Assembly: GCA_014799525.1 (NCBI GenBank)
Contig: JAAVHW010000052.1
Coordinates: forward strand, 1 to 19,198
DNA: 19,198 nt
Reading direction: 5' to 3'
Origin: Clostridiales bacterium
GTDB taxonomy: Bacteria; Bacillota; Clostridia; Christensenellales; CAG-917
Shown: positions 651 to 19,198 of the stretch, piece by piece
Position numbering within the stretch: the first letter of the stretch is position 1
Layout of the letters: every line of letters starts with the position of its first letter
Made by a program: the position numbers and the translations under genes
Notes under the pieces: model-generated
What the model was told of the DNA's origin: nothing
The model's database searches: none
The model's input: only the letters and a program-made list of their open reading frames with translations

Positions 651-850
651 GAACTTAAAATTACAATACTGTTCTCAAGTTGATTTAAGCGCAAATTTTT
701 GTATAGTAACTTAAAATTGAAAGTAAGCGCAAATCTTTTGCTTTCTATTATAATTTTAGAAACGTAAAATTGCAATATTTAATCTCAAGCCGATTTAAGC
801 GCAAATATTTGTATAGTAACTTAAAATTGAATTTAAGCGCAGATATTTTG
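651..850. repeat. Degenerate ~110-bp direct repeat with internal 20-bp motif
   Basis: Two units, about 651-740 and 759-850, align with a 110-bp period across the best-conserved part. Each contains TCTCAAG-N2-GATTTAAGCGC, then TTTGTATAGTAACTTAAAATTGA, then a second TAAGCGCAAAT-like block 40 bp further on. The 20-bp motif ATTTAAGCGCAAATATTTTG therefore occurs four times in one direction (683-701, 721-740, 793-811, 831-850, with a few substitutions or 1-nt deletions). A fifth copy lies inverted at 941-960. No open frame of note crosses the array. With the element at 831-960 it fills the gene-free gap between the XRE gene and rplQ. Confidence 0.85.
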
Positions 851-960
851 ATGCAGAGCGCGAAAAAGCCCTTTTCACTCACAGCCTAACGTACTGAAGT
901 ACGTGACTGTGTGGGGAAAGGGCTTTGACAATGCTATGCGCAAAATAGTGGCGCTTAAAT
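831..960 (-). terminator. Long nested hairpin at the rplQ 3' end (foldback element copy 1)
   Basis: Outer arms 831-850 and 941-960 pair over 17 of 20 positions (10 bp, 3 mismatches, 7 bp). Inside, a second pair of 20-nt arms, 865-884 and 907-926, pairs over 17 positions, and a terminal stem ACGTAC 889-894 / GTACGT 899-904 has a TGAA loop. Read on the minus strand, the inner stem ends GGGCTTTTTCGCGC, giving a five-T run expected of an intrinsic terminator; the plus strand has only three T. The right outer arm includes the rplQ stop codon (955-957). The element shares its boundary and loop motifs with the one at 17114-17240. It probably terminates the ribosomal operon and may also stop plus-strand transcription from the XRE gene. 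Confidence 0.8.
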
Positions 961-16843: not shown

Positions 16844-17018
16844 GCAAATTACTTAACAATTTTCAATGATTTTAAAATATTTTTTGCGCTTGTGTAGGCG
16901 CATAAAGCCCAACACAAAATGTAGTATATATTGATTATTTTATATTCCTATACTTATTATATTATAATAATGTGGTCTTTGAAAGCCGTATCATACAAGT
17001 TTGTGTAGAACTAAAAAT
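16844..17018. other. AT-rich spacer upstream of the rpsJ promoter
   Basis: No gene is visible. The stretch is strongly AT-rich with several TATAAT-like strings (for example around 16955-16970), and one weak stem (ACACAA 16912-16917 / TTGTGT 16890-16895). I see no convincing second promoter here; it may act as upstream promoter DNA. Confidence 0.5.
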
Positions 17019-17099
17019 CACGACATTTGGATGCAGGGCGCGCGCCCTGCACGCGCGGTGCAGTCTCTTGAATAGCGACTCGTCGTGTTCACATCCAAA
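17019..17099 (-). repeat. GC-rich foldback element (third, divergent copy)
   Basis: An 18-bp perfect palindrome GCAGGGCGC/GCGCCCTGC (17033-17050) is followed by a second hairpin CTGCAC-5 nt-GTGCAG (17047-17063). Outer arms TTTGGATG 17026-17033 and CATCCAAA 17092-17099 pair, as can CACGAC 17019-17024 with GTCGTG 17082-17087; the two outer pairings interleave. The left boundary GATGCAGGGCGCG and the right TTGAATAGCGACTCG resemble those of the elements at 831-960 and 17114-17240. In minus sense GTCGTG is followed by ATTTTT, so it could also act as a terminator. Confidence 0.55.
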
Positions 17100-17113
17100 C
17101 TTATATAAAACAC

Positions 17114-17240
17114 AAAAATTGCGTTATTGAGATGAAGAGCGCGAAAAAGCCGCCTGTTTGACAAGCCTAATGTACATATCGTACATGACTTGGCAGACAG
17201 GCGGCTTTGACAAAGCTATTCGCTCAATAACACAATTTTT
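17114..17240 (-). terminator. Long nested hairpin after the ABC permease gene (foldback element copy 2)
   Basis: Outer arms 17114-17131 and 17223-17240 pair over 17 of 18 positions; the single mismatch becomes a G-U pair only in minus-strand RNA. Inner 20-nt arms 17146-17165 and 17189-17208 pair over 18 positions, and ATGTAC 17170-17175 / GTACAT 17181-17186 forms the tip. In minus sense the inner stem ends GGCTTTTTCGCGC and the outer one is followed by TTTTTGTGTTTT, so it should terminate the permease gene, whose TAA touches the outer arm at 17240. Confidence 0.8.
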
Positions 17241-19198
17241 TAGTCTACGCGGAGAGCATCAACAACATTCTTCCTCGACGCACTAATCGCAGGTATAACA
17301 CCTGAAATTACGGTCATGGCAAGGCTTGCAACGACAAGCAGGAAGGCATGCAAGGGGTGGAAGTGCAGGAGGTCGCCTACACCGGATACTGCGCCTATGA
17401 CAAGGCTTATGAGCGGGCAGAGAATGTAGGTTATCACAATGCCCATGATGCCGCTGGTGAGACCAACTATTGACGTTTCGGTGATGAATACGTTTCTTAT
17501 ATCACGCTTACGCGCGCCAAGGCTTCGCAGTATACCAATTTCTCGGATACGCTCTATGACGGAGTTGGAGGTTATGACGCCAATCATGACGGTAGATACG
17601 ACGAGCGAGATTGAAGCAACCGCGACAAGGATTATTGACATAAGGTCAATCATCACACGGAGCATGTACACTGTCATCTCAGATACGTCAAGATATCCAA
17701 CGGCGTTGCTGCCGTCTGCCTGCTTGTGCGTTTCATTCCACTTTGCAATATACTTTGCGGCGTTCTCCTTCTGCTCATAGGTTTCGGGATAGACGTTGAT
17801 GTAGGTCGGTGCCTTTGTTGCGCCGATAGCCTTAAGGTGTGACGTCCATTCAAGCTTTGCGGTTGTTATAAGGTTGATAATCTGTGTATTTTCAGTAATC
17901 TCATCGTCCTTGATGTCGCCGCCAAATACCGTCCTATGCTTTAACTGAGTGCCATCCTCCTTTGCAATAAGGTCACGCTGCGCCTTTGCGATGTTGCTTT
18001 CATAAGCTTGATTGACAACGTAATCCGCAAGCTCGGGGGTATAGCAGATTGCGCTTGAAACATAGTTTGACGCATCGTCCTTCTTGGGACGGATGACACC
18101 GACTATCTTAAGCTCCTCGCCCTTGTTGTAACGAGCCTCAAGCGTGGATTGCTCCTCGTTCGGCTCATGGAACAACGTGCTGTCCGAGGGGTCAGGAATA
18201 TAGTAGTCATTGTTTGATACAAGTTTAAGCGATACTGGGTTGTTAAGGAAGTAATCAATGTCAAGCTGAATGTTTTCATCGACAATACTTTCTACTGGCT
18301 TAATTTTCCCATCCGCAGTTTTGATATACTCTACGCCGAAGTCCTTAAACAGTGTCATAGATATCTCATTATTGGGACCGACGCACAGCACAAGCTCGTT
18401 CTTGTTTTGCGGATAGCGACCGCCAAGCACGTCATAGGACTTGAGCATATTTGCCTCGTCGCCAACCAAAACCTGCCAGTTTGCAGGCTGCACGCCGCTC
18501 TCACCGATTATACTTGTCGTAATCGTCAATGCTGATGAAGTCTCGGGTTTTTGCGACGCATTTGCATAGATAAACTCGCCGTTTCTGTTTATTGTCTTTG
18601 CAATGATATTGTATTGCACGCCGTAGTATGGATTGTACACCGAATAATAATCCTTCGGCATTTTTCTAAGATACTGGTCAAACTCCTCTGTCAAATCGTT
18701 TCTGGAAACAGACTTGAACAGCGAGCTCATAACCGCATTAACGTCCGTACTTCCGCCAACTGGACCTTCTACTACGTTGATGTCGCTGCTGTCGGGATGC
18801 GAACCCTCGCTGACTACAGGCTGCATCATGTTTGACATAACGTCCATGATTGCGGAGACCTCTACGTTGTATTCATACATACCAAGAGGAACGCCTGCCA
18901 TCATCTCCGTTTGCATTTTGTCAACGAAGATGTTAAAGCCGTTTGAAATTGAAAGCACGAGTCCAAGACCTATGATGCCGATACTTCCTGCAAACGCGGT
19001 GAGGAGTGTACGCTTTCTCTTTGAAACGAGGTTGCGGATACTAAGACCGAACGCCATAGCCGCACTCATTGACGTGGGCTTGAAGGTCTTGCTCTTCTTT
19101 TCCGCTTTCTTCTTTTGCTTGCTAAGGCTGTTGAGTCCAAGCTTGTCGAACACCTCGTGCGTATCAACGTGCATCTTGCGCATCTGCTTTTTGCGCTT
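17240..19198 (-). CDS. ABC transporter permease, FtsX/MacB type, C-terminal part
   Basis: The frame is open to the right edge (codons reading KRKKQ precede the first internal Met), so the N-terminus is missing. A Lys-rich linker (KKKAEKKSKTFKPTS) leads to a first membrane segment, LLTAFAGSIGIIGLGLVLSI, then an extracytoplasmic domain of about 400 residues. Three closing membrane segments follow, with the FtsX-type cytoplasmic motif RIREIGILRSLGARKRDIRN, and the protein ends ASRKNVVDALRVD. Relatives in Bacillota carry an ABC ATPase fused in front of the linker, so the full protein is probably a combined ATP-binding/permease polypeptide. Such MacB/LolCDE-like systems act mechanically on peptides, lipoproteins or antibiotics; the substrate here is unknown. 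Not functionally linked to the ribosomal cluster. Confidence 0.85.
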   Translation of the reverse strand, partial: KRKKQMRKMHVDTHEVFDKLGLNSLSKQKKKAEKKSKTFKPTSMSAAMAFGLSIRNLVSKRKRTLLTAFAGSIGIIGLGLVLSISNGFNIFVDKMQTEMMAGVPLGMYEYNVEVSAIMDVMSNMMQPVVSEGSHPDSSDINVVEGPVGGSTDVNAVMSSLFKSVSRNDLTEEFDQYLRKMPKDYYSVYNPYYGVQYNIIAKTINRNGEFIYANASQKPETSSALTITTSIIGESGVQPANWQVLVGDEANMLKSYDVLGGRYPQNKNELVLCVGPNNEISMTLFKDFGVEYIKTADGKIKPVESIVDENIQLDIDYFLNNPVSLKLVSNNDYYIPDPSDSTLFHEPNEEQSTLEARYNKGEELKIVGVIRPKKDDASNYVSSAICYTPELADYVVNQAYESNIAKAQRDLIAKEDGTQLKHRTVFGGDIKDDEITENTQIINLITTAKLEWTSHLKAIGATKAPTYINVYPETYEQKENAAKYIAKWNETHKQADGSNAVGYLDVSEMTVYMLRVMIDLMSIILVAVASISLVVSTVMIGVITSNSVIERIREIGILRSLGARKRDIRNVFITETSIVGLTSGIMGIVITYILCPLISLVIGAVSGVGDLLHFHPLHAFLLVVASLAMTVISGVIPAISASRKNVVDALRVD

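Follow-up and report, generated by a model that had tools for sequence, protein, structure and literature searches.

Two long hairpins in the 19,198-nucleotide stretch of DNA analysed here (the window) belong to a real family that carries no label in Rfam or in a limited literature search. Its members, which occur in uncultured gut Clostridia, are structured 3′-end hairpins, mostly stop-anchored, and most likely terminators with an additional conserved core. Among the three candidates named in the preliminary description, a structured terminator or 3′-end RNA family fits best, given the stop anchoring and the occupation of the terminator slot. The best reading, which is probable though by no means certain, is that of such a family spreading and recombining in the manner of an interspersed repeat. 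Stem-loop repeats at gene ends are already known; what is unusual here is the conservation of structure over sequence and the anchoring at the stop codon. Bacterial stem-loop repeats are usually recognised by a conserved sequence, whereas in this family the shape is kept and the sequence drifts. The family offers many natural replicates for asking what produces paired changes in hairpins, be it selection, template switching or gene conversion.

Both window elements are described by one hairpin of about 124 nt with 51 pairs on the minus strand, at positions 834–957 (copy 1) and 17115–17239 (copy 2). The span first given for copy 1, 831–960, exceeds the modelled hairpin by 3 nt on each side. With a few flanking bases, the minus strand of copy 1 has a predicted folding energy of −56.3 kcal/mol (z −8.4) and that of copy 2 one of −65.8 kcal/mol (z −11.5); 0 of 200 shuffles were equally stable in either case. 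The covariance model matches the copies with 118 bits (model positions 1–124) and 134.7 bits, respectively. The motifs originally quoted recur in both: GATGCAGAGCGCGAAAAAGCC and GATGAAGAGCGCGAAAAAGCC at the left, AGCCTAAYGTAC and GTACRTGACT in the tip, and GGCTTTGACAAWGCTATKCGC at the right. All parts are read on the minus strand. In copy 1, the 5′ outer arm (941–957) and the 3′ outer arm (834–850) are defined by complementarity, fold and alignment. The alignment places the conserved middle motif at 926–941 on the 5′ side (GCGCATAGCATTGTCA) and at 850–865 on the 3′ side (TTTCGCGCTCTGCATC). The inner arms, found by an inverted-repeat search, occupy 907–926 on the 5′ side of the sense strand and 865–884 on its 3′ side. 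The tip stem ACGTAC-TTCA-GTACGT, followed by a conserved 2-nt bulge, TA, lies at 889–904 (fold and alignment). In copy 2, the outer arms (complementarity and fold) are 17223–17239 on the 5′ side and 17115–17131 on the 3′ side, the latter ending in a T-run; the aligned middle motif is GCGAATAGCTTTGTCA (17208–17223) and TTTCGCGCTCTTCATC (17131–17146), and the tip stem is ATGTAC-GATAT-GTACAT (17170–17186, fold). The complementarity reported for the 20-nt inner arms is borne out, with 85% or 17 pairs for 865–884/907–926 and 90% or 18 pairs for 17146–17165/17189–17208. The outer arms are complementary too, at 85% for 831–850/941–960 and 94% for 17114–17131/17223–17240. Both elements begin at a minus-strand stop codon, as had been noted. 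The first three bases of copy 1 are the TAA (955–957) of rplQ, encoding ribosomal protein L17 (open reading frame 955–1473; PF01196), and the TAA of an FtsX-like permease gene (17240–17242; open reading frame 17240–19183; PF02687) directly precedes copy 2. The T-run ascribed to both copies is clear in copy 2 (TTTTTGTGTTTT) and weak in copy 1 (GCGCTTAAATTCAATTTTAAG). Downstream of copy 1, the region 640–850 holds two 68-nt direct repeats 110 nt apart as well as extra inverted copies of the rplQ gene end. The first repeat (673–740, minus) is degenerate and resembles the 3′ arm and tail of copy 1; the second (783–850, minus) overlaps that arm and is 90% identical to the first.

The genome of origin (G000) is a draft of 1.12 Mb, 75.55% complete. 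A covariance model search, proposed when the pair was first described, located copies in it at about 27 places; the 41 rows returned comprise 27 places with E < 1e-6, 12 opposite-strand repeats and 2 weak matches. Because there are only about 27 copies, most transcription units of this genome must end otherwise. The left motif (up to two mismatches) has 10 matches in this genome and the right motif (up to three mismatches) 17, with no match to either pattern read backwards; at least one of these right-motif matches, L023, lacks a right-hand partner and resembles a chance match. Copy numbers from the genome scans are lower bounds, as the scans score part of the first-look candidates, and some places are read on both strands. 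A 263,167-base sample of the genome outside the window holds 2 good copies, whereas 27 copies in 1.12 Mb would lead one to expect about 6; their distribution is thus uneven, with an enrichment in the window. Thirteen copies from this genome align nearly gap-free; those carrying tip inserts or truncated at a contig end were excluded. Chance terminators are excluded by the motif counts against reversed patterns in this genome and by the covariation in the 13 copies described below; there are further copies, and covariation extends beyond the first two sequences.

Throughout the family the element is anchored strand-specifically at the stop codon, an observation that goes beyond the preliminary description, in which only the stop codons were noted. 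The count covers 131 of 154 copies, those flanked by 250 nt or more on each side (23 excluded); the 154 were made distinct by sequence only, and sites fetched twice, such as L027/L035, L095/L189 and L099/L174, count twice. The first base of a same-strand stop codon lies at −6 to +2 of the hairpin start in 97 of the 131 copies, an antisense stop at the other end in 7, and 14 of 776 control positions satisfy the same definition. Thirty-four copies fall outside this range, and several copies with no upstream stop are second members of tandem pairs. Genes were taken as long open frames, not from annotation, and ortholog groups were formed by C-terminal similarity with some paralogs merged. The genes followed by an element include those for ribosomal proteins L17 and S9, EF-P, GAPDH, class II aldolase and the FtsX-like permease. 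Stop codons of 119 element genes are TAA in 108, TGA in 10 and TAG in 1. In the own genome TAA ends 20 of 21 element genes, a count affected by twice-fetched sites, versus 112 of 229 sampled genes, among them the two window genes.

Pairing extends over the stop codon, and in many copies over the preceding base, but no further. In 133 copies (the 154 minus those in which under 9 of 12 outer pairs form or the flank is shorter than 25 nt), the first two positions outside the model have a complementarity of 0.81 and 0.54, and those after them stay at shuffle level; a general copying of coding sequence by the outer arms is thereby ruled out. Pairing outside the model extends 12 nt into the gene in L139 (after rplQ) and 5 nt in L199. 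The distance from stop to core is nearly constant (the stop sits at model position 1 and the middle motif starts at 18), and this spacing, together with the 108 TAA codons in 119 element genes, could point to an element that acts on the terminating ribosome or on mRNA decay, not on RNA polymerase. Its core, about 17 nt after the stop, would then lie close to the front edge of a ribosome whose A site contains UAA, judged by the ribosome footprint. Such a role is improbable. A hairpin of fixed length starting at the stop explains the constant spacing equally, TAA pairs with the U-run anyway, and a weak class-level relative (L264) directly follows a tRNA gene, where there is no stop codon.

Two groups of orthologous sites, at which the presence of the element was judged by eye, bear on termination. 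At rplQ, 9 of 18 genomes have the element or a remodelled form, all with TAA, and the 9 others have a short hairpin instead (2 TAA, 7 TGA). At the permease gene, 6 of 20 genomes have the element and G003 has a 5′ remnant, all 7 with TAA; the 13 without it are divided between TAA (7) and TGA (6), so TAA alone does not mark the element. Short terminators were sought by a scan with loops of 3–10 nt, to which the long element itself is invisible. They were found at 21 of the 22 element-free sites (9 of 9 at rplQ and 12 of 13 at the permease gene, some of them weak), whereas the scan matched 13 of 220 shuffles and, within the genes, 2 of 22 stretches. The 14 element sites scanned (8 rplQ, the G006 copy being cut by a contig end, and 6 permease) gave no match in 9 cases and a match only in the element's own tip stem in 3 (G007 and G004 at rplQ, G004 at the permease gene). 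The remaining 2, rplQ in G001 and G003, are remodelled plain terminators; the G003 permease remnant also has a terminator. Since element-free sites have a short terminator and element sites mostly have none, the element fills the terminator slot. The conserved core is evidently not needed at rplQ in G001 and G003, because there the copy has become a plain hairpin with a T-run. In these loci (L119 in G003, L120 in G001) the 5′ half of the element is now the plain terminator GCGACCTG-CTTTGT-CAGGTCGC plus T-run, and remnants of the 3′ half are still present.

The element thus shares with intrinsic (Rho-independent) terminators its gene-end position, a G+C stem and a U-run, and at two orthologous genes it stands where other genomes have a short terminator. 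Its U-run is brief, frequently broken up (TTTTAC), and comprises only four U in several copies. Unlike intrinsic terminators, the element is several times longer and has fixed internal loops, a bulge and a tip that are common to different genes and species. If the preferred reading of a structured 3′-end RNA is right, and if the element is transcribed, each copy would form the 3′ untranslated end of a transcript. Folding of the RNA would begin at the stop codon, with UAA and often the preceding base pairing to the downstream U-run, and would produce one 51-pair hairpin with fixed internal loops and tip, ending in a short U-run. This structure would most likely terminate transcription and protect the mRNA 3′ end; termination is suggested because the element stands where an ordinary intrinsic terminator would otherwise be. 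A protein or RNase partner would probably read the fixed internal loops and tip, as a plain terminator needs neither. Were the core protein-bound, dozens of transcripts per genome would come under a single 3′-end control point.

The fixed internal loops form the middle motif, whose 5′ half is close to CDKYGUCA and whose 3′ half is close to UUYCNNG; the tip is fixed as GUCAYGUAC-loop-GUACRUUAGGC. Once identical copies and those shorter than 115 nt are removed from the 154, there are 144 distinct copies. Of these, 131 fit a middle-motif expression (C, then three positions that vary, then G[UC][CU]A, nearly always GUCA) and 121 fit the full-tip expression GUC[AG]YGUA..UAC. Length is 118–127 nt in 140 of the 144 and 122–127 nt in 136; the 4 longer copies, of 164–193 nt, have tip inserts. 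In an alignment of 88 distinct family rows, the G-C and A-U pairs inside the middle motif are nearly invariant, and a U·G wobble near the tip (columns 60/86) is kept in 80. In the tip of some copies a further palindrome stands as if inserted (ACCCCACAAAACAGGGACGTTTTGCGGGGACCCC in L037, CCCCGGGGTCCCCATCAAAACGCGTAGCGTTTTCATGGGG in L055 of G014). Loci with tip palindromes are L037 (G000:C1:9345-9508), L049 (G000:C50:26-202) and loci in G014.

Outside this core the arms covary. The selected fold proposed from two sequences, with fixed motifs and covarying arms of constant length, holds both in the 13 own-genome copies and in the 88 family rows. In the former, 96.4% of 661 cells are paired and 33 of 51 pairs are changed on both sides, with a covariation score of 0.522 against 0.053–0.112 for slid partners. 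In the latter, 92.1% of 4454 cells are paired, 44 of 51 pairs are changed on both sides and the score is 0.577 against 0.074–0.120; this alignment was fitted to the model, so that its counts lean towards structure, and 1 of 90 rows (L051, minus) was on the wrong strand. Shuffled alignments reached the observed value in 0 of 500 trials on four of five measures and in 1 of 500 on the fifth for the 13 copies, and in 0 of 500 on all five for the 88 rows; shuffling does not preserve the relatedness of rows, whereas sliding does. The permease copy (window 17115–17239) differs from its G006 ortholog at both sides of 7 of 51 pairs, 6 of which are still paired. Random placement of these changes gives 1.7 double-changed pairs, with a maximum of 7 in 20,000 trials. 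Four pairs of the G000 structure are broken in the G006 copy. With two fixed wobble pairs excluded, G·U appears 156 times on the sense strand versus 112 times for A·C, an excess (p 0.009, rows not independent) that points, modestly, to folding of the sense strand.

How the arms come to change together is a separate matter. Template switching can create and maintain RNA hairpins, according to the available text of PMC8794818, and must enter any account of arm change. In its strongest form the argument would make the covariation mainly mutational, with template switching at quasi-palindromes and gene conversion re-creating complementary arms in one event. Consistent with it, the last base of the gene is often paired (0.54 of the 133 copies, 0.30 when shuffled), pairing in L139 runs 12 nt into the gene, and inner modules are swapped as wholes. 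Of the four orthologous sites compared between G000 and G006, moreover, three have a closer match in a non-orthologous copy. That the fixed loops persist nevertheless (middle motif 131 of 144, tip 121 of 144) is hard to square with template-switch repair, which should erase mismatches, and the same holds for the U·G pair in 80 of 88 rows and for the constant length of 122–127 nt in 136 of 144 copies. A mainly mutational origin is very unlikely; the persistence of the fixed loops speaks for selection as well.

The same gene often keeps its element across species with quite different arms. Identity between G000 and G006 orthologs is 81% for the permease copy, 97% for aldolase, 72% for GAPDH and 73% for a site at which the gene's last residues are ISGLF. 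At every one of these sites except aldolase, the ortholog is less similar than some other copy from the same genome, in a comparison that drew on 27 entries from G000 and only 7 copies from G006. Part of the apparent compensation is therefore whole-module replacement. Among pairs of 143 elements, 31 are alike in both modules (including twice-fetched sites and orthologs), 17 share the inner module (at least 93%) without the outer, most of them from the single genome G014, and 140 share the outer without the inner. Identical cores stand inside different outer arms in L055/L072. Near-identical copies at four places in G014 (L093, L094, L097 and L098) show recent spread. Downstream regions are mosaic-like, with degenerate copies and further palindromic modules. 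A structured 3′-end RNA of this kind would appear to be homogenised within genomes, with near-identical copies at different places and inner modules exchanged; it would evolve like an interspersed repeat, its copies presumably moving between sites, while selection maintains the fold. Immediately downstream of the hairpin, five loci in three genomes carry a second module that begins with GTGAACACGAYG: window 17016–17110 (minus), L029, L049, L112 and L143. It is mostly followed by TTCAAG and a GCGCG-rich hairpin, and the window copy has a fold z of only −2.0.

A palindromic miniature mobile element had also been proposed for the pair, and this agrees with the amplification and recombination of the element in genomes; sequence-conserved ends and an empty site were not found. 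At the DNA level, the element could be a BIME-like mosaic, the substrate of a transposase or recombinase that inserts at gene ends, its fold serving mobility. The range of 0–76 matches per genome within the genus would suit such an element, as would the near-identical copies at four places of one genome, the identical cores in different outer arms, the tandem and degenerate copies, the second palindrome in tips and downstream, and a 101-nt relative (L265) within a larger element with inverted-repeat-like ends. The outer ends, however, vary in sequence, unlike usual terminal inverted repeats. The outermost four pairs are mostly A-U, with U on the 3′ side (63, 78, 84 and 80 of 88 rows), but MITE-type conserved terminal inverted repeats were not found: pairs 5–13 of the outer arm show 3–6 standard pair types in the 88 rows, and mean outer-module identity among pairs of the 143 elements is 0.61. 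TA..TA occurs at both ends of many copies and is also part of the hairpin. No target duplication was established and no alignable empty ortholog found at the two sites compared (rplQ and permease). The Y1 transposase family PF01797, to which the transposase search was limited, was found in 4 of 20 genomes, G005, G011, G015 and G017 (with 0, 17, 12 and 8 element matches); the 10 genomes that exceed 20 element matches, several of which are incomplete, gave no match to it. Anchoring on one strand (97 sense and 7 antisense of 131), the presence of the element after the same genes in several species and the lack of any exact match to the tip pattern in viral_contigs likewise speak against mobility as the purpose of the fold, which is an unlikely explanation. 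Carriage by viruses was rejected on the same absence of exact tip-pattern matches in viral_contigs.

Comparison with known kinds of element gave likenesses but no identity. None of the 4227 Rfam families (release 15) matches the window at or above its gathering score. A permissive scan of four loci with copies gave, as the sole match over a copy, the microRNA precursor family MIR1882 (30.2 bits, E 0.009, gathering score 107); Rfam membership was rejected for both the window and these loci. ERIC elements are about 127 bp long and conserved in sequence, whereas it is the fold that is conserved in the present element. An integron attC site was rejected with reference to the attC consensus: GTTAGGC recurs near the tip, but many copies have A in place of the G, and the box does not lie at the hairpin base. 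As far as the available text of PMC2267715 describes them, ERIC and other stem-loop repeats resemble the element in being dispersed, mostly intergenic and endowed with a common predicted RNA fold; the terms 'stop codon' and 'compensatory' are absent from that text. Among the open-licence PMC papers listed, none was found to name the family in its title or available abstract, the thousands of candidate RNAs in PMC8040213 lying outside the comparison.

Nearest in function and position, on the available text of the sources, are the SPRITE and BOX repeats of the pneumococcus, along with the broader group of stem-loop repeat families (PMC3049150, PMC2267715). SPRITE of Streptococcus pneumoniae is described there as terminator-like, with an 18 bp duplex and a U-rich tract, and enriched near the 3′ ends of coding sequences; BOX is modular, and 36 of 58 overlapping coding sequences have it at their extreme 3′ end, where it encodes the stop (PMC3049150). 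Like the element, both are interspersed repeats predicted to fold if transcribed. In the same partial comparison (PMC3049150), the element differs in arms that change sequence yet pair, in its length of about 124 nt, in its uncultured clostridial hosts and in having its 5′ end, for 97 of the 131 copies, at a same-strand stop codon. Neither 'covar' nor 'compensatory' appears in that text. The suggestion of a REP-like element did not survive. In the portions of PMC2817692 and PMC3733652 that are available, REP/BIME palindromes with RAYT are, like the element, palindromic, intergenic and high in copy number, with mosaic arrays and tandem and degenerate copies. The REP palindrome, however, measures 20–40 bp compared with about 124 nt here (118–127 nt in 140 of 144 distinct copies), the arms of the element are variable in sequence, and its high-copy genomes have no Y1 match; REP/RAYT was rejected by length and by the distribution of the Y1 transposase.

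The element was matched in 18 of 20 genomes of the genus (zero in G005 and G008), in 31 of 43 genomes and 4 of 10 genera of the bacterial family, in 27 of 297 genomes of the order under stricter filters, and in 10 of 391 genomes of the class, where the nine other than G000 have weak matches. A pattern scan of named genomes gave at least 92 stretches, 80 of them listed as loci; among the listed matches are metagenome bins of uncultured Clostridia or similar, including Christensenella sp. UBA1260 and UBA1262, the former assigned to Christensenellales by NCBI. The window's own taxon may be akin to Christensenellales. The weak class matches examined share features of the middle motif, and one (L262) directly follows TAA. 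A novel gene-end RNA class can be imagined, tentatively and with considerable doubt, in which an ancient core, the middle motif, is read by a putative protein. Fused in Clostridia to stop codons and sometimes to tRNA 3′ ends, it would control the release of polymerase or ribosome and the lifetime of the mRNA. In one family of the order it would have become a set of genome-wide exchangeable cassettes (outer arm, core, inner arm and tip) in which pairing is kept.

Among the weak matches, L264 (about 1501–1707, minus) lies directly after the 3′ CCA of a tRNA and is followed by the apparent start of another copy. Six are a 101–102-nt form without the tip motif (L263, L265, L266, L267, L268 and L271). 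At L265:1350–1640 (G347) the 101-nt relative is contained in an element of about 290 nt with inverted-repeat-like ends, CGGCGGTACTTCTTAGGG..CCCTAAGAAGTACCGCCG, between two convergent genes. In L263, L266, L267 and L268, from other clostridial families, a hairpin of 101–102 nt is set in flanks similar to those of L265.
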